Assembly (NCBI GenBank): GCA_026387935.1
Contig: JAPLKU010000021.1
Span: forward strand, 1-64,000
DNA: 64,000 nt
DNA from: Gemmatimonadota bacterium
GTDB lineage: Bacteria; Gemmatimonadota; Gemmatimonadetes; Gemmatimonadales; Gemmatimonadaceae
Reading direction: 5' to 3'
Shown here: positions 31,451 through 46,471 of the stretch, piece by piece
Layout: every line of letters begins with the position of its first letter
Position numbering within the stretch: position 1 is the first letter of the stretch
Translations under genes and position numbers: made by a program
The notes under the pieces: generated by a model
The model's database searches: none
Told to the model about the DNA's origin: nothing
Seen by the model: the letters and a program-made list of their open reading frames with translations, nothing else

Positions 31451-34400
31451 TCAGGGCTTCTTCGGAGTCCTCGATAGCGACCGGTAGTACTCCTCCACCA
31501 TCGCCTTGAATGCCGGTGGCACTTCGCCCGAGCGCTCGAGCAGCATGCGGCCGCCCGCCTCGTCGCCGCTCGCACGGCGCAGCGCGAACTCGTACGCCTT
31601 GAGGCCTTCGATCACCTGTGTGCGCAGCGTTGCTTCCGCTTTCTTGTCGTCGAGCGAGGTGAAGGTGCTCGGCATGCCCTTCATCGCCTCGATCGCGCGG
31701 TCGAGCGGCGCGACTTCCTGTCCCTGGCGACGCAGATCGCGCGCGAGTGCTTCGGCCTCCTGCAACCGCTGCTGCAAGTCGCGGTTCAGCTGCTGGCTAT
31801 CCGGACCGTTGTATTGGCCGGGATTGCCGCCGTTGTAGTTGCCACCGCCGCCGCCGCCACCGCCGCCGCCACCGCCGCGTCCGCCCTGCTGATTTCCTTG
31901 CTGGTTTCCGCGACCGCCGCCGTTGCCCTGACCCATCTGCTGGCCTTGACCCTGACCTTGGCCCTGCCCTTGACCCTGCCCTTGACCCTGCCCTTGGCCC
32001 TGCCCTTGGCCCTGTCCTTGGCCCTGTCCTTGGCCCTGTCCTTGGCCCTGTCCTTGGCCCTGTCCTTGGCCCTGTCCTTGGCCCTGTCCTTGGCCCTGTC
32101 CTTGGCTCTGTCCTTGGCCCTGGCCCTGGCCCTGGCCTTGTTGCTGACCTCGGCCCTGTCCTTGGCCCTGACCCTGCTGCTGACCTTGGCCCTGGCCCTG
32201 TTGGCCCTGCTGACCACGGCCTTGCTGTTGTCCCTGCTGACCTTGTCCCTGCTGCTGACCGTTCTGTCCCTGCTGACCCTGACGACCATTCTGCTGGCCG
32301 CCTTGCTGCGCGTTGGCGCGGGCCGAATCGGCCTGCTGACCCTGAGCAAGCCTCCGCTCCTGCGCCTGGCGCATCCCTTCCTGCACCGTCTCGAGCCCGC
32401 GCACGAGATCGCGCATCCGGTCCGCCGACTGCGCACCGGCCTGCGCCTGCTGACCCTGTTCTGCCGCACCGGCCGCTTCCTGCAACCGCCGGCCGAGGTC
32501 CGCAATCTCACCGCTGATCAGTTTTTCCTGTTCGTTCAGATACGCCTGCGGCGCGGTCCCGACGGCCTGCCCGGAACCTTGCATCCGTTCCGCGAGCCGC
32601 TTGTTGCGAAGTGAGTCCGCGGCGTTCCGCAGCGCGCGCGACACATTTGGCTGCTCGCGCGCATTCTCCGTCGCGAGCCGGTCGAGCTGCGACGTGAGCG
32701 CGCGCACTTCGCCGGCCATCTGGTTCTTCTGCGCCTGAATCGAACGCTGCACCGAATCGCGGCGCAGCTTGGGATCTTCAATCTTGCTGATCTCATCCTG
32801 CACCTTCTTCTCGGCATCGGCGAGCCGGCGCTGCTGCGCCTGCGCCGCTTCGATGTCCTTGCCGGCGCTGCCGCTCCGCTCCTGCTCGAGCAAACGGCGC
32901 GCTTCATTCAATCGATCTGCGGCGCCGCGGGCATTCGCGCTCCCGCTCCGGCCGTTCGCCGCCGACTGACGCATCTGGTCGGCTGATTCCTGAAGCTTGC
33001 GCGCGGCGTCCGCGAGTGGCTGCGATTGCCGCTCACGCGCGAGACGCTCGAGCTGACGCGCCGCCTGCTCCGCATCCTGTGCCAACTGGCGCTGCCCGTC
33101 GCCACCGGTGGCACCGGCCTGGCCCATTTGCGATAGACTGTCGGCCTTTCGCTGCGCGCGCGCGTCCTGTTGCAGCTGACGCGCCGCGAGCTGCTTCAAC
33201 TTTTCGGCGGTCTCGTCCAGCGTCGAGGCCGCCGGATCCTGCTGCTGGCCGCCCTGCTGCGCTTCCTGGCCGCGCTGCACCGACTCGTACTGGTTCCGCA
33301 GCCGGTCCTGCTGCAGTTCGAAGATATCGGCGAGGTCCGACGCATTTGCGCCGCCACCACCACCACCGCCGCCACCACCACCGCCACCCTGTTGCTGCTG
33401 AATCTGGATTTCGCGGAACACCGCTTCGGCGCGACCGAGTTCCGTCAGCGCCTTCTGCTCGTTGCTCAACGCGCCACGTTGCGTCGGCGCGATCAGCTTC
33501 TTCTCGGCTGAATCCATCTGCGCCACCGCGCGCGGAAGGATCTTCGCAATCTTGTTGAATCCCGTGGTGTCGCTACCGCCCACGATGCCGCGCGTCACGA
33601 GCCGCTCGGCCAGCAACGCCGCCTGCTCCTTCACCTTCTGCTGCGCGAGCCGCACCGTGGCGACGTTCTCGGCCAACGTCTTCGCATCGAGCGTCGCCGA
33701 ATCGCGCGCCAGATTGAACGTCGCCGAAATCACCTGGCGCTGTTGTTCGGAGAGCTGATTGGGATTGTTCTGCTGCCCACCACCACCGCCTCCCCCACCA
33801 CCGCCGCCACCACCCTGGCCCTGCTTGTAGTCCATGTCGTACGGACGCACCGTGAGGAAGTACATGTCCGTGCTCGCGGTGCCGGGCCCAGTGACGACGT
33901 TGTTGTCCGTCGCCTTGGCGTAATACGAAATCTGGTCACCAGGCTGCAGCTTCATGTCTTCGAGCATGAACGTGTGACCGGCGGCGATCTCCCTCAGCGC
34001 ACGCGCCGTCGCAGAGAACAGGCCAACCGTGCGTTCGTCGCCGCCGTTGATCGAGTAGGTGATGTCCAGCTTCGAAACGCCGTAGTCATCCTGCGACTTG
34101 GTATCCGAAAACACCTCGTCAACCGAGAGCACGCGCACATCGCGGCCGGGCTTGCCGATCGCGACTGACGGCTTGCGGTCGGGGAGCGCGTCAATCGTGT
34201 AGTCGAGTGACGCACTCACCGCTCGGCCGTCGGCGCCCTCGAGCTCAACCTTGTAGAAGCCGTTCTTCGTCACGCGCATCATGGCGACGAGCTTGCCGTC
34301 GGCCGTGGGAGCAAGACGCAGCGTGTCGCCGCCGTCTATGACCAGGCGACCTGCACTGGTCGCCACTGTCGGTGAGACTCGAACACGCACCATCGTGCCC

Positions 34401-35359
34401 GTCAGCGCAGCCACGTCGCCGGTGCTGTCCACCTGTTTGTTCGCGAGCTGCGTGTACGCGGGATACCGGTACTCGAGATCCATGCGCGCCACGTAGGGAA
34501 TTGCCGCGACAGTCAGCTTGAACGTCGCCGAACGAATGCCGGACGCTTCAACGGCATACTCAGTCGGCGTCGCCACATCGAAGAGCCGGAACGCCCACTT
34601 GCCCGTCGAGTCGGCCGCCATGTCGAGACGCGTCCAGGCCACGGCGCCCTCACCGCGCACAAGAAGCTCAGCGCGCTCAGTCGAGAATCCGGTCAGTGAT
34701 GCGGCGACGAGCTGGTCGCCACCCTTGGCGATGGTCTTGTTGCCTGGTGCCACCGTGATCGTGAACGCACGATTGGCATCGGTGCCGGCCCACGGCGTTA
34801 GCAGCAGCTGTGCGCCCGTACGCAACGCCAGCGGACCACCGGCGAAGATCGCGAGCACTCCAAGCGAAACGGAAAGAAAGAGGCCGACCGATTTCTTCAG
34901 CCCTCCGGCATCAACGCGTTTGCCAGACTCGGCGCCGCGAAGGCCATCGAGCGCCGCGCGCACGAGACGGGCGGCGATTCCACCGGCTGCGACGCGATCG
35001 GCCGCGCGCTCGTTGATTTCCACGGCCGTAACGAACGCACCGCCAAGTGACCGCTCATGCTCCTCGACGTAGAGCGCCACGCGCGAGTTGTCCGGCGTGT
35101 CGCGCAGCGGACGAACCACGAAACGCCAGGCCGCGCCAACCGCTCCCGCGAGCGCAATGATGCGCGCAAGAATGATGAGCGTCGGGTTGTAATGCGAAAT
35201 GCGCATCAGGACTGAGAGGCCAATCCAGAGCACAGCGACGATCGTGATCGCGATAGCCGCGCCGCGCAGTGCGTGCTTGATGCGCCAGCGCAGGCGCACG
35301 TCGCGCACGGCAGCGCCAAGCGCATCACCGCCACTCATGATCCGGCTCGCATCCGTCAT
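31451..35359 (-). CDS. DUF4175-type membrane protein with long Gln-Gly repeat
   Basis: This is the last gene of the MoxR-type operon. ATG 35359 has a strong GGGAGG Shine-Dalgarno sequence. The N-terminus has two helices (AAIAITIVAVLWIGLSVL and the following LIILARIIALAGAVGAAW) and a later segment near LGVLAIFAGGPLALR. A beta-rich extracytoplasmic domain follows to about residue 500 and resembles DUF4175. Then come several poly-Gly tracts, a long Gln/Arg/Ala coiled-coil region (about 540-1010), and about 130 residues of near-perfect Gly-Gln repeats. The C-terminus (EALARDLRRQGQEVAPLDRAI) is conserved and helical. It is probably an envelope-spanning or tethering protein of the complex. Total length is about 1300 residues. 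Confidence 0.85.
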   Translation of the reverse strand: MTDASRIMSGGDALGAAVRDVRLRWRIKHALRGAAIAITIVAVLWIGLSVLMRISHYNPTLIILARIIALAGAVGAAWRFVVRPLRDTPDNSRVALYVEEHERSLGGAFVTAVEINERAADRVAAGGIAARLVRAALDGLRGAESGKRVDAGGLKKSVGLFLSVSLGVLAIFAGGPLALRTGAQLLLTPWAGTDANRAFTITVAPGNKTIAKGGDQLVAASLTGFSTERAELLVRGEGAVAWTRLDMAADSTGKWAFRLFDVATPTEYAVEASGIRSATFKLTVAAIPYVARMDLEYRYPAYTQLANKQVDSTGDVAALTGTMVRVRVSPTVATSAGRLVIDGGDTLRLAPTADGKLVAMMRVTKNGFYKVELEGADGRAVSASLDYTIDALPDRKPSVAIGKPGRDVRVLSVDEVFSDTKSQDDYGVSKLDITYSINGGDERTVGLFSATARALREIAAGHTFMLEDMKLQPGDQISYYAKATDNNVVTGPGTASTDMYFLTVRPYDMDYKQGQGGGGGGGGGGGGGQQNNPNQLSEQQRQVISATFNLARDSATLDAKTLAENVATVRLAQQKVKEQAALLAERLVTRGIVGGSDTTGFNKIAKILPRAVAQMDSAEKKLIAPTQRGALSNEQKALTELGRAEAVFREIQIQQQQGGGGGGGGGGGGGANASDLADIFELQQDRLRNQYESVQRGQEAQQGGQQQDPAASTLDETAEKLKQLAARQLQQDARAQRKADSLSQMGQAGATGGDGQRQLAQDAEQAARQLERLARERQSQPLADAARKLQESADQMRQSAANGRSGSANARGAADRLNEARRLLEQERSGSAGKDIEAAQAQQRRLADAEKKVQDEISKIEDPKLRRDSVQRSIQAQKNQMAGEVRALTSQLDRLATENAREQPNVSRALRNAADSLRNKRLAERMQGSGQAVGTAPQAYLNEQEKLISGEIADLGRRLQEAAGAAEQGQQAQAGAQSADRMRDLVRGLETVQEGMRQAQERRLAQGQQADSARANAQQGGQQNGRQGQQGQNGQQQGQGQQGQQQGRGQQGQQGQGQGQQQGQGQGQGRGQQQGQGQGQGQGQSQGQGQGQGQGQGQGQGQGQGQGQGQGQGQGQGQGQGQGQGQGQGQGQGQGQGQGQQMGQGNGGGRGNQQGNQQGGRGGGGGGGGGGGGNYNGGNPGQYNGPDSQQLNRDLQQRLQEAEALARDLRRQGQEVAPLDRAIEAMKGMPSTFTSLDDKKAEATLRTQVIEGLKAYEFALRRASGDEAGGRMLLERSGEVPPAFKAMVEEYYRSLSRTPKKP
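31925..32330. repeat. 12-bp tandem repeat encoding (Gln-Gly) repeats
   Basis: A run of ccttggccctgt units, roughly ten of them identical and others diverged (ccttgaccctgc, ctgctgacc), lies in frame in the DUF4175 gene. The repeated unit has no spacers and stays a multiple of 3, so copy-number change would lengthen or shorten the protein without a frameshift. Confidence 0.9.
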
Positions 35360-35376
35360 CGTCCCGCCTCCCAAGC

Positions 35377-37458
35377 CTACGTGGTGACCGTTCTGGACAG
35401 CCGGTTGGAGAGAATTGTCTCAGCCGCCAGCACCAGGAAGGCCCCTATGAGAAGATACCACCACATCCGTTGATTGCGTTCCCGCTCAGCGGCCGTGCCT
35501 GCCTCTGCTGTTGAGGCACCGTTCACCGTGCCGGCAGTTGCCGTCGCAGCTGCCACCAGCTCGCGCGGCTCCATATGCGCCATATCCGACTCGGCCATAT
35601 CAACATTCACGGCCACCGGCCGCCCGGCGCCATCGGCGGTTGCCTGCGTGCGGAGCTCGTAGAATCCGCGCTCGAGGAGCGCGGACGCGTGGGTGGAGTC
35701 GCTGAAGCGTGCGCGCTTGCCCGACGGCGACATGAGCGAAAGCACCGGCGCATCCGCGCCAGGAGCAGCCTTGGTCGCGAGCCCGACCGTGAGCTCGCCA
35801 TGCCGCGAGAGGTCGAGCACTTCACCTGCCGTAAACCAGGGGCGTGAGTTGCTGAACCGCCCCGCGTGGCGCGCCAGCTGGCGCATGAAGGGGAGGAACA
35901 CCGGCTGCGTGGGCATGTCGGTCCAGTAGTCATCAATGGACGTTGACCAGACCACGACCCGCCCCTGCCCAACCGAGCGTTCGACGAGCGCCGGCGTGCC
36001 ATCGTCGTACCAGGCCAGCACACCGCTGTCGCCGACCACCCGCAATGTGCGATGCGTAAACACATGCGCCGACGCAAAGTCGCCGCTGCCGGGCGCCGCA
36101 AATGCCTCGAACACCGGACTCGCATACGAGAGCCGCGCGAGTCGCGCACCTCCCGCATTCGCACGGTTCACGACATCGCCGTAACCGACGCGCAGCACGG
36201 TGGTCCATTCCTTTGGCACACGATCACCCGGTACATCGCCGGGCACCACGAGAATGCCGGTGCCGCCCTTGAGTTCAGCGCGAAGCGCCACGCCAAGGTC
36301 GCCGCCCGGGGGCGCAACTTCGTCGAGGACGACGAGTCCGCGCGAGGCGAAATCGCGTGGCGTGATGGAGTCCACACGCTTCACATCCACGCGGAACCGC
36401 GGCTGGTCGCCGATTTCAAGCGCGCGCTTGAGAAAGAGCGCCTGATTCGTGCGCGATGAGGTTGGTTCGATTACGAGCACGCTCACGGCCTCATCCGGCG
36501 CGAGCGTAAAGAAGAACTGGTCGTTCGCGGCGAGCGCGTCCGACGGAATCTTCACCGATCCCTTGGTGATTCCGCCCGGGACGGTGGTCGGCGCAAACCG
36601 GGCCTGCACTGAACCCGCTGGCGGGATCGTGACACGACTGGAGCCAACCGTGCGGCCGGCCAACTCGAGCGTCGCTTCAACCGTGCGCGGTGCGCTACCG
36701 GTGTTGGTGAGACGCGCCGTGACCGTCACCGGTGCTCCCGCTTCATCCGACGCGCGATCGGTTTCCACCGACGCCACCGCCACGTCGCCCACATCCTTAC
36801 CCGACACATCCATCGGAATGACTTCGACGCCCTGCGGCAGGTGGATTTCCGACTGCCCCGACCAGCCGCGGCGCTGGAAATCCGAAATCAACACCACTTC
36901 CCTGCGCGGCATGTTCGACGCGCCAAGGATGTCGCCCGCGAGCTTCAGCGCCGGGCCAAACCGCGTGCCTTCGGAACTGATTGTCGCGCGCGCGATCGCG
37001 CGTTCCATGTTCGCGTGGTCAGCACTGGGCTCCGTGAGCGCCGACGCGTCGTTGGCGAATGCCACGATCGTAGCGCGGTCTTTGGGGCCAATCGACGCGA
37101 TCGCCACCTTGGCCGAGTCCTGCGCGGCCTTCCAGCGTGTGCCGTATCCCATCGAATACGAGCGATCGAGGAGGATCACGACTTCCTTCGCGCCGACGCC
37201 CGCCGCAAGTGACGGCGGCTTCACGAAGAACGGGCGCGCGAACGCGGCGACAAACAGGAAGAGCGCGAGGCAGCGCAGAATGAACAGCAAGAGATGCCTG
37301 AGCTTCTGCTGCCGCACCGAGCGATACGGCACGCGCTGGATGAACATCAGCGACGGAAAGGGCACGACCGTCTTCCGCTCGCGATTGATCAGGTGGATGG
37401 CAATGGGCACGCCAATCGAGACGAGGCCGGCGAGAAACCAAGGCGCGAGAAATGACAT
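35377..37458 (-). CDS. BatA-like membrane protein with VWA domain
   Basis: This 693-residue protein has the N-terminal double-membrane-segment signature of the BatA/TIGR02226 type (MSFLAPWFLAGLVSIGVPIA and LLLFILRCLALFLFVAAFARPFF). A von Willebrand A domain follows with the MIDAS Asp/Ser in VVILLDRSYSMGYG and ATIVAFAND. A long extracytoplasmic beta region and a final membrane helix (WWYLLIGAFLVLAAETIL) complete it. It sits downstream of MoxR and DUF58 with gaps of 5 and 24 nt; in Bat/MoxR systems such proteins form membrane VWA assemblies whose metal site binds partners. The next gene (DUF4175) starts 17 nt after its stop. Confidence 0.88.
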   Translation of the reverse strand: MSFLAPWFLAGLVSIGVPIAIHLINRERKTVVPFPSLMFIQRVPYRSVRQQKLRHLLLFILRCLALFLFVAAFARPFFVKPPSLAAGVGAKEVVILLDRSYSMGYGTRWKAAQDSAKVAIASIGPKDRATIVAFANDASALTEPSADHANMERAIARATISSEGTRFGPALKLAGDILGASNMPRREVVLISDFQRRGWSGQSEIHLPQGVEVIPMDVSGKDVGDVAVASVETDRASDEAGAPVTVTARLTNTGSAPRTVEATLELAGRTVGSSRVTIPPAGSVQARFAPTTVPGGITKGSVKIPSDALAANDQFFFTLAPDEAVSVLVIEPTSSRTNQALFLKRALEIGDQPRFRVDVKRVDSITPRDFASRGLVVLDEVAPPGGDLGVALRAELKGGTGILVVPGDVPGDRVPKEWTTVLRVGYGDVVNRANAGGARLARLSYASPVFEAFAAPGSGDFASAHVFTHRTLRVVGDSGVLAWYDDGTPALVERSVGQGRVVVWSTSIDDYWTDMPTQPVFLPFMRQLARHAGRFSNSRPWFTAGEVLDLSRHGELTVGLATKAAPGADAPVLSLMSPSGKRARFSDSTHASALLERGFYELRTQATADGAGRPVAVNVDMAESDMAHMEPRELVAAATATAGTVNGASTAEAGTAAERERNQRMWWYLLIGAFLVLAAETILSNRLSRTVTT

Positions 37459-37463
37459 GGCCG

Positions 37464-38462
37464 CTACCGCACCCGGTTGTACCGCTCGCGCGCGCCGAGG
37501 TAGGCGTAGAGCGCGTCGGCGATGGGCTGCGATGTATCGAACAGCGTGTAATCAATCCGGCGTTCCGCCGCCATTCTCGCGAGCGTCGCCGTGTGCTCGG
37601 CCACGAGCTTCTTGTATTCCTTCCGGAGATAGTCGGGGATAAGCGGCATCTTCTCGCCCGTCTCGATGTCAATGAAGTTGCTCGAATCCGAAAACGGGAA
37701 CTCGATCTCATCCTTGTCGAGCAACTGGAAGCAGATGACATCGTTTCCGCGGCCGCGCAGGTTATCCACGGCATCGAACACCGCCTGCGGATCTTCATAG
37801 AAGTCCGAAATCACGAGCACGATACTCCGGCGTCGCGTGGACTCGGAGAGCTGCTTCATCGGCGGCATCATGGATGCGCGTCCGGTCAGCGTTTTTGCAT
37901 CAGCGGCGGCCGTGATGGCCGCGCCACCGCTTTCACCGGGCGAATGCACCGCGGCCGCACGATTGGCGCGGTCGAGTGAGTGCAATACGAGCCGAAGGTG
38001 CTTCGACGAGGGCGGCACGTAGTCCACGATGCCGTGGTCAAATGTCGCGAGCCCAACCCGGTCGCGCTGTCCTGCCGAGAAGTACGCCAGCGCCGCCGTG
38101 AGAAAGCAGGCGTACTCCAGTTTGCTCACGCCGCGGTCGCCGCTCGTGGATCCCTTGTAGCGCATGGAGGGCGAGACGTCGAGAATCGCGAGGAAGTTCG
38201 CGTTCGTGTCGGCCTCGAACTCCTTCACATAGAAACGGTCGGTGCGTGCGAACAGCTTCCAGTCAACTTTTCGAATGTCGTCGCCCGGCGTGTACTGCCG
38301 GTGCTGCGCGAAGTCCGTGGACGATCCGAGGTTCGGCGAGCGGTGCAAGCCGTTGATGAATCCTTCGACGACCGCCTTCGCGACGAACTCGAGGTTCCCA
38401 ATCCGCGACAGAATCGCGGGATCGAGAAACTCGTTTCCTGTTGGACGCGCGGCAGCGGTCAC
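37464..38462 (-). CDS. DUF58 domain protein
   Basis: This 332-residue soluble protein starts at GTG 38462. It has the DUF58 block DIRKVDWKLFARTDRFYVKEFEADTN (the conserved W-x-x-x-A-R-T-x-x-L region) and a VWA-like fold with the MIDAS-type LDVSPSMRYKG. DUF58 proteins nearly always follow moxR genes and are thought to work with the ATPase in activating or remodelling a partner. The spacing, 24 nt after moxR and 5 nt before the BatA-like gene, fits that module. Confidence 0.92.
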   Translation of the reverse strand: MTAAARPTGNEFLDPAILSRIGNLEFVAKAVVEGFINGLHRSPNLGSSTDFAQHRQYTPGDDIRKVDWKLFARTDRFYVKEFEADTNANFLAILDVSPSMRYKGSTSGDRGVSKLEYACFLTAALAYFSAGQRDRVGLATFDHGIVDYVPPSSKHLRLVLHSLDRANRAAAVHSPGESGGAAITAAADAKTLTGRASMMPPMKQLSESTRRRSIVLVISDFYEDPQAVFDAVDNLRGRGNDVICFQLLDKDEIEFPFSDSSNFIDIETGEKMPLIPDYLRKEYKKLVAEHTATLARMAAERRIDYTLFDTSQPIADALYAYLGARERYNRVR

Positions 38463-38486: not shown

Positions 38487-39518
38487 CTAGCGCATTCCTG
38501 AGCCAGGCACCGGCACGGCGTCAAGCAGCTGTTTGATGATCTGGTCGGACGTGACCTTCTCGGAATCGGCGTGGAAGTTCATGAGGACGCGATGCCGCAT
38601 CACGGGGTTCGCGAGCGCACGCACGTCGTCAAAGTTCACGTGGTAGCGACCCTGCATGAGCGCGCGCGCCTTGCCACCGAGAATCAATTGCTGCGGAGCG
38701 CGCGTGGACGCCCCGTACGACACCCATTCATTGATGAACTTCGGTGCGCCCGGGCCCGGACGGCTCGCTCGGGCCAGCTTCACGGCATAGCGCGCGACGG
38801 CGTCCGCGACCGGCACACGGCGCACGAGCGCCTGGAACGCGCGCACATCGTCGCCCGTCATCGCGTGCTTGAACTGCTGATTCATGGTCGCCGTCGTGCG
38901 CGTCACGACGAGGACTTCATCGTCCTCGCCGAGGTAATCCATGTTGATGTTGAACATGAATCGGTCGAGCTGCGCTTCGGGGAGCGGATAGGTGCCCTCG
39001 AGCTCGATGGGGTTTTGTGTCGCAAACACATGGAACGGCGGGTCGAGCGGATACGTCTTGCCCTGCACCGTCACGCGCTTTTCCTGCATCGCTTCGAGTA
39101 GCGCGGCCTGAGTCTTTGGCGGCGTGCGGTTGATTTCGTCGGCGAGGACGATGTTGGCGAAAATCGGTCCGGGCGTGAAGACGAGCTTCCGTCGCCCGCC
39201 TTCATCTTCCTGGATGATGTCGGTGCCGGTGATGTCACTCGGCATCAGGTCGGGCGTGAATTGGATGCGCGAGAACTTGAGGTCGAGCACCTGCGAGATC
39301 GTGTTGATCAGCAGGGTTTTCGCGAGGCCCGGCACGCCGATGATGAGGCTGTTGCCGCCCGCGAAAAGCGAGAGGAGCACGAGGTCGATGACCCCTTCCT
39401 GCCCAACGATGAGCTTGTGCAGTTCACCGTTAACCGCATCCACACCTGACTTGAGTCGGTCAGCCAGAGCAATGTCGTCGGAGGATTCGAGCGCGGGCGC
39501 TGAAGCAGTGGAAGTCAT
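38487..39518 (-). CDS. MoxR-type AAA+ ATPase
   Basis: This 343-residue cytosolic chaperone-like ATPase has Walker A GVPGLAKTLL, Walker B IVLADEINRTPPKTQAALLEAM, sensor 1 FHVFATQNPIE and the arginine-finger segment PLPEAQLDRF. The C-terminal lid domain carries VSYGASTRAPQQLILGGKAR, which is diagnostic of MoxR. It presumably remodels or activates the VWA/DUF58 proteins encoded next to it. There is a 6-nt gap from the DUF4159 gene upstream. No metal-chelatase or methanol dehydrogenase genes are nearby, so the classical MoxR role in methanol dehydrogenase is not implied, though PQQ enzymes are encoded elsewhere in the window. Confidence 0.94.
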   Translation of the reverse strand: MTSTASAPALESSDDIALADRLKSGVDAVNGELHKLIVGQEGVIDLVLLSLFAGGNSLIIGVPGLAKTLLINTISQVLDLKFSRIQFTPDLMPSDITGTDIIQEDEGGRRKLVFTPGPIFANIVLADEINRTPPKTQAALLEAMQEKRVTVQGKTYPLDPPFHVFATQNPIELEGTYPLPEAQLDRFMFNINMDYLGEDDEVLVVTRTTATMNQQFKHAMTGDDVRAFQALVRRVPVADAVARYAVKLARASRPGPGAPKFINEWVSYGASTRAPQQLILGGKARALMQGRYHVNFDDVRALANPVMRHRVLMNFHADSEKVTSDQIIKQLLDAVPVPGSGMR

Positions 39519-39524
39519 TCGTTC

Positions 39525-40382
39525 CTAGTGCGTGAGTGCGTAGATGACAAAGTTGACGCCGAGCTTGAACGCTTCGTTGGACACATCGACGGGCATGAAG
39601 CCCTGCCCCGACCATTGCCACGACTCGCCAATGTCCTGGCCGTAGGCGGCGAGCACGATCAATCGCTTCTTCGGGTCGTTCTTCTCGAAATAGCCGTAGA
39701 AGTCGCCGCCGTTGCGGCCGCCGCCGCCGCTGTAGCCACGGCGCACCTTGGCCATATCCACCTTGAAGAACGAGTCGAAGATCGGCTCCTTCCCCGTCAG
39801 TTGGATGGGCCTCAGGTCCGGCATCGCGCGGGCCATTGCATTCGTGAACGTTCCCCAGGCTTCAAAGGGGAAATCGTCCACAATCATGAAGCCGCCCTTC
39901 GAGAGATACTTGTGCAGCCCGGCGACTTCTTCCGCGTTCGGAAACCAGCCACCGGGCTCCGAGAGGTAGCTCACGGGATACTTGAAGAGCGCGGGATCGT
40001 CGAGCGAGACAATCGCGCCGCCAAGCACGTTCCCGAAATCGGTGAACGGGCGCATGCTCGTGATCTCGCGAAGAATCTTCATGAAATGCACGTCGGCGTC
40101 AGGGTAGTCATGCGACCAGCCCGGCCCCTCACGTCCTGACCAGTAGCCATACCCGCGGTACTTGATCCGCGCGAAGGTGAATCGGCCATCATAAACGGGA
40201 TTGCCGCGGAAATCCGGGGGGGTGTAGAAGCCGTTCGGATCGCTGAGCGCCGACATGTCGAAGCCGCGCGGTCCTCGACCGCCGCCGCGACCCCCGCCGC
40301 GTTGCGCGTGAGCGGCCTGCGCCAGGAGCATGGCGCCGACGGCAACCGCGCCAACGCGCCGCACGATCGCATACGTCCTCAT
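39525..40382 (-). CDS. Exported DUF4159 domain protein
   Basis: This 285-residue protein has a signal peptide (to HAQRGG) and then a Gly/Arg tract (residues 24-37). The DUF4159 core follows: FTFARIKYRGYGYWSGREGPGWSHDYPDADVHF, VSLDDPALFKYPVSYLSEPG, GGFMIVDDFPFEAW and LIVLAAYGQDIGESWQW. The fold resembles glutamine amidotransferase/ThuA-like domains in which the catalytic Cys is missing, and no Cys is seen here. It overlaps the TPR gene stop by ATGA and is 6 nt before moxR. It is a constant companion of MoxR clusters; function is unknown. Confidence 0.9.
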   Translation of the reverse strand: MRTYAIVRRVGAVAVGAMLLAQAAHAQRGGGRGGGRGPRGFDMSALSDPNGFYTPPDFRGNPVYDGRFTFARIKYRGYGYWSGREGPGWSHDYPDADVHFMKILREITSMRPFTDFGNVLGGAIVSLDDPALFKYPVSYLSEPGGWFPNAEEVAGLHKYLSKGGFMIVDDFPFEAWGTFTNAMARAMPDLRPIQLTGKEPIFDSFFKVDMAKVRRGYSGGGGRNGGDFYGYFEKNDPKKRLIVLAAYGQDIGESWQWSGQGFMPVDVSNEAFKLGVNFVIYALTH

Positions 40383-43069
40383 GGCTTCCTCCCGTCTACG
40401 ATGGCGAGCAGCAGATCCTGCGCTCGTTCGAAATTGGGGGCGTCCTCAAGCGCGCGTAATACCGTGCGCCTGGCCTTCATCTCATCGCCGGCACTGCGGT
40501 AGGCCACCGCGAGATCAAAGAGCGCGGCGGCCTTGTCCACCGGGTCGAGCGCGACGAGCGCCTCACGTTCGCGCACGTGCCGCGCATGGTCGCCGCGCGC
40601 AGCGGCAAGGGCGGCGAGGCTCTTGTGCACGTCGGCCGGGAATGGATTGACGAACACGGCGCGCTCGAGCGCGTCCATCGCGCCGGCAGAATCGTTCGCC
40701 GCTGCGAGCAAGGTGCCGAGCTGCACGTTCGCGTCGAACGCCGATTCGTCGGAGAGCGCCACCACCTTCAGCATCGCGATGGCCTTCGCCTTGTCACCCG
40801 ACTCGCCGTAGAGCTTGGCGAGCATCACCGCGGGCGAATCGTTGTCGCCATACAGCGGGAAGAGCGCATGCGCCCGCTCCAGCATCCTGATGGCTTCGAG
40901 GTTCTGGTTGGTCTTGATGAACGCCATGCCGGCGAGCACCTGCGCGCGATAGCTCCCCGGGAGTGAATCGGCGCGCGCCTTGAACTCGGAGACGCCCATG
41001 CCCGCGGGATATTCCGGACCCGGAATCGCGATCGCCGCGAGCGGGCCCGCGAAACGCTGTTTCATATAGGTGTCGAACCGCTTGTCGAACGCAGCCATGT
41101 CCTGCCCCGTCACCTTCTGGAACGCGTCGTCTGTGGTGCGACCGGCCTTGTACTCGTTGAGCAGCGCCATGAGCGCCTTCTCGCCGAAGTCGCGCACGAT
41201 CAGGTCGCAGACCAGCGACGCCTGGAAGTACGAAAACGGAATCTGGTCGGGATACTTCGGCCGCATGAAGCCGTCGTTCATTCGGCTCACCGGCACGAGC
41301 TTCCCGGTGCGAAACGCCTCGAGGAAACCCGGCGACACGCTCGCACCCCAGCCGGCGCGCGCCTGATGCTCTTCCCACACCGACAACCCTTCCGAAAGCC
41401 AGCGCGGAATACGGTGGTCGGTGGACCCGAGGGTGAAGGTGTGCGCGAGCTCATGCCAGACGGTCGACGCCCAGTTGAACGGGCCGGCATCCTTCGCCGC
41501 CGGCGAATCAAACGCCAGCGTCGTGCCGAAACTCACGCCGAGCGCGCCAAGGCCGGCGAGGCCAACGGTGCGCACGGAGAAATCGGCGTGACTCCGATAC
41601 ACCTCGATGCGAATCGGCGGTGGCGGAGTGAACTGATAGCGCTGCGTGAACCGCGAGTAGGCCTTTTCCGCGAGGTCATGCAGATACACCGAGATGACGG
41701 CCGACTCCGTCTTCTCGATCATGTAGTTCACGTGCGCGGTGGACGAGTTGTCGTAGTTCTTGAACGTATCGAGCAGGTCGAGGGTGTTCTTTACCCACAC
41801 GTCGAACGGATCGCCCTTGAACGCGGTATCGAGGCTCGCGCGCCCTTCGGGAATCTTTCCGAGGCGCATGAGGTTCATGCCGAGCACGGAATGGGCTTTC
41901 CAGTTCTTCGGGTCCGCCGCAATCGCCTGCCGCGCAAAATCGGCCGCCACCGAATACCGGCGAACGCGTCCCGTCATTTCTGCGAGCTCCACGAAAAAGC
42001 CCGCATCGCGCGGATTGATCGCGAGCACGCGCGCCTTCGTTTCCTCAAACCCTTTCTCGTCGCCGCTCACGAACTTGGCGCCCGCAAGCACGGCCAGCGC
42101 ATCCGCATCGGCCGGATTCACCTTCAAGGCGCGCTCGGCTTCCCTGATCGCGTCGGCAAAGCGCTCGACATCCACCATACCGTGCGCCGCTAACACGCGC
42201 GCCGGCGCAAACTCGGGGCTCACTGCGAGGGCGGCCAGGAGGAGCGAATCTGCGCCAGGCTGCCCGTCGAAAATCAGGCGCGACGCCGACGCCACCAGGG
42301 CGCGTGGATTGGACGCGTTGATCTGCAGCACCTCGTCGAGCGTCTTCTGTGCCTCAGCGCCGTTGTACTTCTCGAGGAACAGCTCACCGAGCAGGACCCG
42401 CGCTTCCATGTTCGCCGGATCGATCACGACGGCGCGGTCGAGGGCCTTCAGCGCGTCCTTGAACAGTTCCGGGTTGCCGGCGCCGAGTTCGCGACAGGCA
42501 ATGCCAACGGCCATCATCTCGCGGCTAGTGAGCGTCTGCGAAGCGGTGTTGTAAATGTCGATAAAGCGGTCGAAGCCGGCCGTCGCGCGGGGCATGTCAC
42601 CGCGGCGTTTGGCGAGGAGGGCGAGGTTCAGTGACGCCATCAGGCTGTCGGAAGCGTGTTCGGCGATTGCGCGTGCAAACATTGAATCGGCGGCAGCGTA
42701 CTTGCCCCGCGTGGCCAGCACCTCGCCGTACGCGGTCAGTGCCTGGCGACCCCCTGGTGCCGCGACGGCCGCGCGGGCGAGTCGCTCCGCGTCGTCGTAC
42801 TTGCTGATGATGACAAAGGCACGGATCAGTTCAACCTGCGCGTCCATCCATGACGAATCCGTCTTCGCCACGCGCTCGAGGAATCCCGTGCCTTCGGCGT
42901 ACTTGCCCATGGCATTCGCGATGCGCGCCTCTTCCACGCTCTGTGGGCCAGCGGCACGTTGTGCACGCGCAGCCGGCGCGACGGCGACGAGCGCGAGCAC
43001 AGCCCACGCGCAGGCCACTGCGAATGCTGGCGCGTATCGAATGCTGCGGTGGCGACCGAGGGACCTCAT
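40379..43069 (-). CDS. Exported TPR protein with a gluzincin (HELAH) peptidase-like domain
   Basis: This 896-residue protein has a signal peptide (to PAARAQR). TPR-type helical repeats occupy about residues 45-430 (DPANMEARVLLGELFLEKYN, NPADADALAVLAGA, DPKNWKAHSVLGMNLMRLGK). In the middle lies a metallopeptidase-like core with WASTVWHELAHTFTLGSTD at about 535-553 and a Glu-bearing LSEGLSVWEEHQ 20 residues later, the HEXXH + E pattern of peptidase-MA/gluzincins. More TPR repeats close the C-terminus. It is an envelope zinc-peptidase candidate that may process the other operon products. It overlaps both neighbouring genes by ATGA. Confidence 0.88.
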   Translation of the reverse strand: MRSLGRHRSIRYAPAFAVACAWAVLALVAVAPAARAQRAAGPQSVEEARIANAMGKYAEGTGFLERVAKTDSSWMDAQVELIRAFVIISKYDDAERLARAAVAAPGGRQALTAYGEVLATRGKYAAADSMFARAIAEHASDSLMASLNLALLAKRRGDMPRATAGFDRFIDIYNTASQTLTSREMMAVGIACRELGAGNPELFKDALKALDRAVVIDPANMEARVLLGELFLEKYNGAEAQKTLDEVLQINASNPRALVASASRLIFDGQPGADSLLLAALAVSPEFAPARVLAAHGMVDVERFADAIREAERALKVNPADADALAVLAGAKFVSGDEKGFEETKARVLAINPRDAGFFVELAEMTGRVRRYSVAADFARQAIAADPKNWKAHSVLGMNLMRLGKIPEGRASLDTAFKGDPFDVWVKNTLDLLDTFKNYDNSSTAHVNYMIEKTESAVISVYLHDLAEKAYSRFTQRYQFTPPPPIRIEVYRSHADFSVRTVGLAGLGALGVSFGTTLAFDSPAAKDAGPFNWASTVWHELAHTFTLGSTDHRIPRWLSEGLSVWEEHQARAGWGASVSPGFLEAFRTGKLVPVSRMNDGFMRPKYPDQIPFSYFQASLVCDLIVRDFGEKALMALLNEYKAGRTTDDAFQKVTGQDMAAFDKRFDTYMKQRFAGPLAAIAIPGPEYPAGMGVSEFKARADSLPGSYRAQVLAGMAFIKTNQNLEAIRMLERAHALFPLYGDNDSPAVMLAKLYGESGDKAKAIAMLKVVALSDESAFDANVQLGTLLAAANDSAGAMDALERAVFVNPFPADVHKSLAALAAARGDHARHVREREALVALDPVDKAAALFDLAVAYRSAGDEMKARRTVLRALEDAPNFERAQDLLLAIVDGRKP

Positions 43070-44052
43070 GGCCGGCCCTCCGCGCGGCGAATCTCGCGAG
43101 ACTTGCGGGCGAGATCGATCAGCACCTGTTCAAGGTCGCTCTCGTACTTCTCCTTCGGCGTAGAGGCCTTGCGTGAGCGCAGCGAGTCCACCTGCACTTC
43201 GAGTTCGAACTTCTGGCTGTAGAGTCCGGCAAGCGCGGCGTCGCCACCCGCCGCTGTCACTGCAGTACGCGCATCAAGGAAGAAGCGGCGGGCGAGCATT
43301 CCCTGCCCGCCGCGACCCGTCGGGTCGGCCGTGTTCTGCTTGGAGCCGTCGTCGTCGAGCTGCGAGTGCTCGGTCTGGAGCTTCGCGGCGTTGTCATAGA
43401 CGCGTTTCGTCTCGCGCGCAGCGTAACGGAACGCTTCGAGCAGCGAGACGCGTGAGTCCTTGTCTACGTCGGCCACATCCTGTGACAGTGCCTTCACGAA
43501 GAACTCCGCGAAGCGCGATTCGTTGCGTTCGAAACCCGTCTTCGTCGCCGTGATCACGACACGCCCCGGCGCCGCGATGATCGGCAGGAAGTCGCCGCTC
43601 GCACTGGTCAGGTTCACAAACGCCAGCCGCTGCTGGGGAAACCCGTCCATCCAGCGCTTCACATCCGCGACCGTGACATCTGGACCGGGAAGACTGATGC
43701 GCGACTCGGCTTCAGTCCCAGCGCCGTGACCGATGAAGATGATGACCACCTGGCTGCCCGGCGCGCAGCGCGCCTTGATCGCCTCGATCTGCTTCTCCAC
43801 CGCCGCGCGCGTGGACGGCCCACGGTATCGCGGGTCGCGCGACGTTGAGTCTTCGCCGAGCCAGGCAATACTCGCGTCAGGAATTCCAAATCGGGCGTGC
43901 AGCGCGCCGCTCAACTCAGCCCCGAGCATGCGAAACCGCTCCACAAACTTCGGCTCGCCACCCAGACCGCCAACGATGAGGACCTGCGTCTGCGCGCGCA
44001 GTGGTGCGGCGGCCAGCAGCGCAAATGCAACTGCCGCAATGGTTCGCCTCAT
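43066..44052 (-). CDS. C13/caspase-like protein with Ser in place of the nucleophile Cys
   Basis: This protein of about 328 residues starts at ATG 44052 (GAGAGGG Shine-Dalgarno, ATGA overlap with the upstream gene) with a signal peptide ending at PLRAQ. The core resembles clan CD peptidases: VLIVGGLGGEPKF, then the catalytic-His strand VVIIFIGHGAGTE. Where legumain/caspase families have xCxSG, the sequence is VNLTSASGDF, so Cys is replaced by Ser. The fold otherwise continues normally (VVITATKTGFERNESRFAEFF). Residues 205-216 counted from the upstream in-frame ATG read DVDKDSRVSLLE, an EF-hand-like calcium loop. The C-terminal tail is a charged helix. It is either inactive or uses Ser. Confidence 0.8.
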   Translation of the reverse strand: MRRTIAAVAFALLAAAPLRAQTQVLIVGGLGGEPKFVERFRMLGAELSGALHARFGIPDASIAWLGEDSTSRDPRYRGPSTRAAVEKQIEAIKARCAPGSQVVIIFIGHGAGTEAESRISLPGPDVTVADVKRWMDGFPQQRLAFVNLTSASGDFLPIIAAPGRVVITATKTGFERNESRFAEFFVKALSQDVADVDKDSRVSLLEAFRYAARETKRVYDNAAKLQTEHSQLDDDGSKQNTADPTGRGGQGMLARRFFLDARTAVTAAGGDAALAGLYSQKFELEVQVDSLRSRKASTPKEKYESDLEQVLIDLARKSREIRRAEGRP

Positions 44053-46379
44053 GCCAGCCCTCTCGCCTTTCTGTATCCCCATTCGGCGCTCACCAACCCG
44101 ACGAGCAATACAAAAATCACCGGCATATCCCAGAGATCCATCTGGTTCACCACTGTCACACCGCGCTTGGTCATCGCGATGTCGTCCGGCAGCGTGCTGA
44201 TTTTATCGGCCGTGTAGAACCGCCCGCCCGTCTCATCGGCGATGCGCTGCAGCAACGGCCGACGCATTTCCGCCATCGTGTATTCCGCATCGAGCGCTGC
44301 GGCCCGGATATACGTCGTGTCGGTGACAACCCCCGAACTCGTTGTCGCCGTGACGCGCACGCGATGTACGCCTTCTTCAGCGGGCGTGAACACGGCGCGG
44401 TACTCACCATCGCGCTCCACGGCCCAGTCGAGCGGCAGGTCGCTCCTCGCGCCGGACGGTGCCGTCACCTGCGCGATGACTTTCGCATCGTTCAAGCGCA
44501 GGAAAGCGCTGTCCACCACTATCGCGCGCAGGTTCACTGGCGACTTCGGATTCACCTGATCCGGCGTCGCGCGCGCTTCCACGCGTTCGGGCGTATCGCT
44601 CGTCACCCAGCGCAGCAACTGCCGCCAGAAGGTCTGAAATGACAGATCGTCAATCTCGATCGAGCCGGCCATGCGCCACTGCCAATCGTCCTGCACCGCC
44701 AGCGCGACGGCCAGTCCGCGGCCGAATCGCTGGTATGCGAGGATCGGTTGTTCATACCGGGTCATCGTTTCGCCGGGCATCCCCGCGCGGCCGCCGACCG
44801 GAACGTTGCCGGTGATCAGCACCACCGCGCCCGGCTTCAGTTTCTTGATGCGATTCACCGCCGTTACCGACGGCATGGACTTCCACTTTTCGGTCGCCGT
44901 CAGTTTCGCCGTGCCAATCTGCGTGACCGCATGTGCGAAGCCGGCCGGCGTGAGCGAGGGCGCGAGATCGGCAAAGAAACTCAGACTATCCGCGACGGCT
45001 GGTCCTTCAACCACAAACGGCATCGCATCGGCAAGCGGAGTGCCCGCGTACCCACCCTCTGAAAACGAGTGGCGTCCGCCGAGCTGCAGCAGCCCACCGC
45101 CGCGCACGCTCACGAAGTCGGTGAGCATGGCCAGCTGGTCGTGCGTGAAGAAACTCGCCTCGATGTCGCCGAGTACGACCGCCGTGTACTTGTAGAGTTC
45201 GGCGCGCGTCTTGGGGAAGCCCGCGACGAGTTCGTCGCCGTTGTCCACGTTGAGGCGGATGAACTTGCCGTCCGCCGTCCGCTGCAGGACCACGAGTTGA
45301 ATGTTCGAATCCAGCTCGACGGCTTCGCGAATGAAGCGCACTTCGTACCGCGGCGCGCCTTCGATGTAGAGCACCTTCTCGCGTGCGTCACGCACCTGCA
45401 CCAGCGCGCGCTGCGCATTGTTCTCCATCACCTGTTCGCGATCCTGCACCGGAATTCGGAACGTCAACGTGCGCGCACCAGACTCCGACAGCTTTGCCGT
45501 GATCCGCACCGGCGAAGCATCCGATCCGGCCGGCATCAGGATGTCGGCGCGGGCCACGATGCGGCCTCCGTCTTCCACAATGAGCGGAACCGTCTCTCCG
45601 TCGAACCCGCGCTGCCGGATGATCACATCGGCAACGAGGGTGCCGTTCTTCAGCACGCGGCGCGGCGCTTCCACCCGCTGCACCTCGATGTCGCGCGCAA
45701 ACCGCTCCGACCCGAGTCCAACCGTGAACACCGGCACGGCACGCGCCCGCAGTGCCAGCAGCGCATCGTTCACTTCCGCCGCGGCGTTGTCCGCACCGTC
45801 CGAGACGACAACGAGCCCTGAAAGCGGAACGGCCTCGAGGTCCTGGCGCGCCGCCTCTATTGCGTCCACGAGGCGTGTTTCGCGCTGGTCATAGCGCATG
45901 CCGCCCGCGCTGTCGGTGCGCGTGGACGAGCCGCCGAACCGGAACAACCTCACCTGGAACTTCTTGCGCAGTTGCCGCAACAGATCCGACTTTTCACCGA
46001 GTGTGTCGCGCACGAAGTCCGAGCGAGTGCGGGCACTGGCGCCGGTACCGCGATCGGCAATCCGCATGCTGCGCGAATCGTCGAGCAGCACGCCAATGAA
46101 GTTTCGGCGCGGTACAGCTTCCGAGAGCAGCAGCATCGGGCGGAAAAGGCACGCCATGAGGAGCAGGAGCGCCGCTCCGCGGAGCACCGTCAGCACGATT
46201 CGGTCGCGCGGCGTGCTCTTTCCGCGAACACGGAAGTACGTGAGCAGCGCGGGGATCGTCAGCGCAGCGGCGAGCAGGACGATGAGGATGACAGACATCG
46301 GCGCGCCGAGGGCGAAGTCTCCCTGTTCGAAGACTGCCGGCCGGTACTTGAACAGCAGCTGAAAGAGGGCGCCGAACAC
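44049..46379 (-). CDS. Membrane protein with VWA and glutamine-amidotransferase-like domains
   Basis: This is the first gene of the eight-gene operon, about 776 residues. The likely start is GTG 46379; TTG 46400 and ATG 46298 are alternatives, but LLFKYRPAVFEQGDF before the latter is typical of this family. Two membrane helices (SVILIVLLAAALTIPALLTY and IVLTVLRGAALLLLMACLF) precede a VWA-type domain with MIDAS LLDDSRSM and the later LVVVSDGADN. A beta-rich region leads to a class I glutamine-amidotransferase-like fold (YKYTAVVLGDIEASFF, GGGLLQLGGRHSFSEGG) without visible catalytic Cys. A C-terminal membrane helix ends it. It is probably the surface or periplasmic organiser of the complex. Confidence 0.85.
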   Translation of the reverse strand: MFGALFQLLFKYRPAVFEQGDFALGAPMSVILIVLLAAALTIPALLTYFRVRGKSTPRDRIVLTVLRGAALLLLMACLFRPMLLLSEAVPRRNFIGVLLDDSRSMRIADRGTGASARTRSDFVRDTLGEKSDLLRQLRKKFQVRLFRFGGSSTRTDSAGGMRYDQRETRLVDAIEAARQDLEAVPLSGLVVVSDGADNAAAEVNDALLALRARAVPVFTVGLGSERFARDIEVQRVEAPRRVLKNGTLVADVIIRQRGFDGETVPLIVEDGGRIVARADILMPAGSDASPVRITAKLSESGARTLTFRIPVQDREQVMENNAQRALVQVRDAREKVLYIEGAPRYEVRFIREAVELDSNIQLVVLQRTADGKFIRLNVDNGDELVAGFPKTRAELYKYTAVVLGDIEASFFTHDQLAMLTDFVSVRGGGLLQLGGRHSFSEGGYAGTPLADAMPFVVEGPAVADSLSFFADLAPSLTPAGFAHAVTQIGTAKLTATEKWKSMPSVTAVNRIKKLKPGAVVLITGNVPVGGRAGMPGETMTRYEQPILAYQRFGRGLAVALAVQDDWQWRMAGSIEIDDLSFQTFWRQLLRWVTSDTPERVEARATPDQVNPKSPVNLRAIVVDSAFLRLNDAKVIAQVTAPSGARSDLPLDWAVERDGEYRAVFTPAEEGVHRVRVTATTSSGVVTDTTYIRAAALDAEYTMAEMRRPLLQRIADETGGRFYTADKISTLPDDIAMTKRGVTVVNQMDLWDMPVIFVLLVGLVSAEWGYRKARGLA

Positions 46380-46471
46380 TGGGTGGATTCGGAAGACCAA
46401 GGACGGAGGCTTACATCTATAACAGTTACCCCTTTCCGGGGCGCTTTGTTGAGTTCCTTGTTAGGCCCGCA

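Follow-up and report, generated by a model that had tools for sequence, protein, structure and literature searches.

A predicted legumain-fold protein without the catalytic cysteine is encoded beside a Bat-type VWA protein in a MoxR operon of Gemmatimonadota

What does a caspase- or legumain-like protein do when Ser occupies its catalytic Cys position and its gene lies in a MoxR operon? The question is raised by a gene in the window, the whole stretch of 64,000 nucleotides analysed here, which comes from contig JAPLKU010000021.1 of a Gemmatimonadota bacterium (assembly GCA_026387935.1). We refer to its product as the C13-like protein. The gene is read from the minus strand (Table 1), and the opposite, plus strand of 43066-44052 contains stops. 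An upstream ATG at 44082 would give a frame of 338 residues, but the start at 44052 is the better one because its ATG shares an ATGA with the stop codon of the gene before it and begins a predicted signal peptide, MRRTIAAVAFALLAAAPLRAQ. At the other end of the gene, the stop codon and the start of the next gene likewise overlap as ATGA. The two motifs picked out in the first-pass annotation of this DNA are in place in the 328-residue frame, IGHG at residues 107-110 and LTSASGDF at residues 148-155. The loop that it likened to an EF hand, DVDKDSRVSLLE, was also read correctly, except that its numbering as residues 205-216 counts from the ATG at 44082 and becomes 195-206 here.

Table 1. Positions in the window of the C13-like gene, its main features and the neighbouring genes.
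Feature	Position	Strand	Remarks
GATVWA partner gene	44049..46400	-	783 aa; ATGA overlap with C13-like gene
C13-like gene (putative pseudopeptidase)	43066..44052	-	328 aa; signal peptide about 1-21; H109, S150
His109 codon	43726..43728	-	frame arithmetic: 44052 minus 3 x 108
Ser150 codon (AGT)	43603..43605	-	clan-CD catalytic Cys site
EF-hand-type loop DVDKDSRVSLLE	43435..43470	-	residues 195-206
Other parts of C13-like protein			TEH 227-229; C-terminal helical tail 272-324
TPR_MA (TPR + Peptidase_MA_2 protein)	40379..43069	-	signal peptide; ATGA overlap with C13-like gene
DUF4159 protein	39525..40382	-	signal peptide
MoxR AAA+ ATPase	38487..39518	-	
DUF58 protein	37464..38462	-	
BatA-type protein	35377..37458	-	aerotolerance N-terminal domain + VWA
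DUF4175-like membrane protein	31451..35374	-	E 3e-05, below Pfam cut-off; last gene of examined run

Searches of Pfam, NCBIfam and, with the single sequence, the PDB gave nothing convincing for the C13-like protein alone, and Pfam PF01650 (Peptidase_C13) had no match to it up to E 1. A profile of its orthologues reached metacaspase-4 (E 0.002) and legumain (E 0.08), a profile of the wider family reached metacaspase-4 at E 1.9e-05, and in the profile alignments Ser150 falls on the catalytic Cys of both enzymes. With a threshold of E 0.01, Peptidase_C13 was matched by 15 of 53 family members, the best at 2.3e-07. The AlphaFold2 model (pLDDT 82) superposes on legumain with Z 21.1 and an rmsd of 2.6 over 207 residues, and metacaspases, GPI transamidase and caspases rank behind. 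This match bears out the clan-CD fold proposed at first pass, and placement of the predicted structure in clan CD, nearest to family C13, is well supported. The likeness to legumain extends over the predicted fold, the His motif, the position of S150 and the S-G that follows it, and of the two catalytic residues of family C13 the His is present (H109) while the Cys is replaced by Ser. Unlike legumain, the C13-like protein has its own C-terminal helical tail, and the residue after the catalytic position is Ala, where the alignment has Glu in legumain.

The replacement is a property of the family and not of this genome. In a sample of the home phylum, Gemmatimonadota, 197 of 395 genomes gave a match, a few of these being weak matches to other clan-CD proteins. 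A first set of 60 sequences had Ser at site 150 in 59 and Asp in one; in the full set of 148 distinct sequences the counts were Ser 140, Thr 7, Asp 1 and Cys 0, with His109 in all 148, Ser152 in 147 and Gly153 in 146. The exchange of Cys for Ser at the xCxSG site with the His retained, which the first-pass annotation had seen in one protein, is thus phylum-wide. The Ser is conserved in orthologues, none of the 148 carrying Cys, and a local mutation or sequencing error at site 150, to which Cys-bearing orthologues would have pointed, is ruled out by Ser, Thr or Asp throughout the phylum. Elsewhere in the phylum, the weak matches are to normal C14 and C13 proteins of the Cys type, whose Cys falls on site 150 where the alignment covers it. 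On the home-phylum tree (length 17.8) site 150 changes once, and H109, D195, E206 and E228 do not change. One homologue of the gene (locus L129, genome G574) contains an in-frame TGA, from sequencing error or decay.

A different pattern was found in Planctomycetota, where 85 of 392 genomes had a match and about 50 matches were clear members, at only 27-35% identity to the C13-like protein. In 49 of these, site 150 is Ser in 28, Pro in 8, Ala in 7, Cys in 4 and Gly in 2, and His109 is present in all 49. Across a tree of 107 sequences, which is not securely rooted, the site-150 residue requires 16 changes; within a 33-member planctomycete subtree (length 13.6) it changes six times, with no change at H109, D195, E206 or E228. 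Ser150 is encoded by AGY in 135 of 140 home-phylum sequences and by TCN in 27 of 28 planctomycete ones, so the two Ser states do not form one unbroken single-step line. Because the His is kept in the 17 planctomycete members that have no nucleophile, its conservation suggests that it still serves in binding or in the structure, and a site that goes to Pro, Ala or Gly while the His stays points to a family of pseudopeptidases. Where the first-pass annotation had offered a pseudoprotease or a Ser variant, these members favour the former over the latter. The simplest view of the alignments is that site 150 must be small, with a hydroxyl in the home phylum, rather than be a nucleophile. A pattern scan of genome contigs for Cys-type relatives had given three loci and pointed to a Planctomycetales contig; the match of L110 was accidental, its Cys lying two residues upstream of the actual site, which is Ser.

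The gene had been placed inside a MoxR operon, and MoxR, DUF58 and BatA genes do lie in one run with it (Table 1). The upstream gene, GATVWA, offers the nearest hint of function. Its product has three predicted membrane helices, a Bat-type VWA domain with a DxSxS motif, an Ig-like part and a GATase1-like insertion at 341-603. Its VWA domain is close to BatB (4jdu, Z 19.2; 3ibs, Z 18.4), and the insertion to GATase1-like structures (3soz, Z 23.9; 3rht from Planctomyces limnophilus, Z 23.4). The GATVWA alignment contains no invariant Cys, so the GATase part is possibly dead too, and the pair may consist of two inactive enzymes. Charges flanking the first two of its helices suggest a periplasmic placement of the large domain, as for the Bat protein BB0173 (PMC5700661). 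Followed to their contig limits, 40 home-phylum loci have the order GATVWA, C13-like gene, TPR_MA, DUF4159, MoxR, DUF58 and BatA. GATVWA is directly upstream of the C13-like gene in all 38 testable loci, and TPR_MA follows it in 39 of 40; the exception, L059, is the sole locus without TPR_MA and the MoxR part within about 6.8 kb downstream. Of 35 planctomycete loci, 31 have GATVWA on the same strand ahead of the C13-like gene, in some cases separated from it by a DUF4159 gene. Inheritance is all or none: among 41 relatives, one and the same set of 18 has orthologues of GATVWA, the C13-like gene, TPR_MA and BatA (with E below 1e-80 required for BatA), the few gaps falling at contig ends (G010, G017), and all four are missing from the other 23. 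No natural fusion of GATVWA and the C13-like gene was found among the open reading frames of the loci examined. The joint inheritance with GATVWA in two phyla suggests a binding partner and not a protease.

From the computed fold, the missing nucleophile, the conservation pattern, the gene pairing and the all-or-none inheritance, we infer that the C13-like protein is probably a periplasmic, catalytically dead legumain-fold binding subunit of a Bat/MoxR-VWA complex, docking on GATVWA. We predict that it is exported to the periplasm and no longer acts as a cysteine peptidase. It would most likely dock on the periplasmic part of the membrane-anchored GATVWA, forming an envelope complex that would be served by MoxR, DUF58 and BatA. 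The former active-site cleft, His109 included, would probably bind a peptide, a ligand or the partner, and the EF-like loop would probably bind calcium as a structural brace.

The planctomycete members with Cys provide a counterpoint to a dead subunit. Four members of the gene pair (L159, L161, L165 and L167) have Cys at site 150 together with His109, in the order C-x-S-D, and could be active; they may have remained so or may have regained the Cys. A standalone relative, L168:4685-6049 on the minus strand, is the nearest intact-dyad relative observed, with an intact His, C-H-S-G, the same C-terminal region (ENPLLDDNGDG) and no GATVWA nearby. Both would fit a cysteine-peptidase lineage in transition, with an active ancestor, the four-member clade still active and the other branches dead. 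The Cys clade, however, is without the SG glycine and is not basal but groups with Ser members (support 80), in a tree that is not securely rooted, and we consider such a transition unlikely.

The home-phylum sequences raise the further question of a Ser (or Thr) hydrolase with a working His109-Ser150 dyad in a clan-CD fold, in that phylum at least and perhaps switched by calcium. Consistent with such an enzyme, the invariant His there is accompanied by a hydroxyl residue at site 150 in 147 of 148 sequences, and the AGY, ACN and TCN codons seen all keep the hydroxyl. The site is more constrained there than the planctomycete pattern predicts, so the hydroxyl may have a role. Against a hydrolase, planctomycete pair members with Ala, Pro or Gly still keep the His, and Thr stands for Ser in seven sequences. 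Thr is an unusual replacement for a catalytic Ser, and we know of no clan-CD serine peptidase; a working dyad seems to us quite unlikely, and the dead binding subunit remains the preferred reading.

The acids at EF-hand loop positions 1, 3, 5 and 12 (D195, D197, D199 and E206) are present as claimed at first pass and are conserved. Among the 148 home-phylum sequences D195 is found in 147, D197 in 137 (Asn in 10), D199 in 138 (Asn in 9) and E206 in 147. The spacing arises in 0.5% of shuffles of the protein, and the conservation of the loop is far beyond chance. Position 6 is Ser in the window protein versus Gly in 40 of 60 relatives. In the AlphaFold2 model helices 181-190 and 204-221 flank the loop. 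Pfam EF-hand models had no match in the C13-like protein; among 17 relatives they matched three, none below E 0.21. The idea that the loop is special to this protein was rejected: of 14 outgroup proteins, 13 of which are Cys-type, 12 share the Asp of loop position 1 and the Glu of position 12, and the same loop occurs in C13 and C14 proteins without the GATVWA operon. It is an old feature of this clan-CD branch and does not by itself speak for calcium gating, although the C13-like protein is probably calcium-stabilised. Some clan-CD enzymes, namely metacaspases and RgpB, are known to be activated by calcium (PMC4357240). A second motif, of calcium type by its look, follows the TEH at residues 231-240 (43333-43362); it reads LDDNGDGxG in most relatives and is degenerate, LDDDGSKQN, in the window protein.

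A calcium-gated sensor, in which the loop reports periplasmic calcium through GATVWA to MoxR, would suit the operon context, the near invariance of the loop in both phyla and the predicted export. The loop predates the pairing, being common to Cys-type relatives without the operon, and has no Pfam EF-hand match, both of which argue against a sensor, and we find it improbable. Also improbable is an exported, phylum-wide His-Ser(Thr) hydrolase of clan CD, gated by calcium via the loop, whose target or partner would be a Bat-type membrane complex. An immune or suicide system of the MoxR-vWA conflict type with caspase-like effectors (PMC7159879) would account for MoxR, VWA and caspase-fold genes standing together and for a window MoxR that scores above the bpMoxR cut-off, but is highly improbable in view of the lack of a beta-propeller among nine operon and flanking proteins (Pfam scan), the signal peptides on several products, the apparently dead active site and an operon order fixed across the home phylum.

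A dead legumain-fold subunit paired with GATVWA resembles several known systems in part. Bacterial pseudo-orthocaspases, already surveyed (PMC6426788), are likewise clan-CD proteins with the catalytic pair replaced and Ser at the Cys site; they are Tyr/Ser proteins of family C14, whereas the C13-like family keeps the His in all counted sequences and is nearest in fold to C13. Where prokaryotic caspase homologues have lost the Cys, its most frequent substitute is Ser, at 43% (PMC3501461). Metacaspase-4 of Trypanosoma brucei, which PMC6426788 cites through a paper whose title calls it a pseudopeptidase, is, going by that title, also a dead clan-CD protein with a retained function, but a eukaryotic C14 one and, unlike the C13-like protein, without an operon partner. 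The Cys-to-Ser substitution as such was already known; we found no description in the searchable literature of a C13-like pseudopeptidase as fixed partner of a Bat-type VWA/GATase-like protein. Bat/MoxR operons are widespread. Those of spirochaetes and Bacteroides share with this one MoxR, DUF58, BatA and VWA membrane proteins, but a legumain-fold gene is absent from their descriptions, and the GATase1-like insertion in the Bat-type partner is unlike them, as far as the accessible text of those reports goes (PMC5700661, PMC3557215). The VWA domain of BB0173 has been shown to be periplasmic (PMC5700661). Deletions in Leptospira lent no support to the role in oxidative stress proposed for Bat/MoxR operons, whose function is called elusive (PMC3557215). 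The tight pairing of a legumain-fold protein with a Bat-type VWA protein, seen in two phyla, offers a concrete partner for studies of Bat function, and repeated change of the nucleophile with the rest of the cleft constrained makes the family a clear case for studying how pseudopeptidases keep a function once catalysis is lost. Elsewhere in the operon, the DUF4175-like protein has very long Gln/Gly tracts with GQGQ repeats, and at one locus (L085, genome G035) TPR_MA contains an in-frame TGA, from sequencing error or decay.
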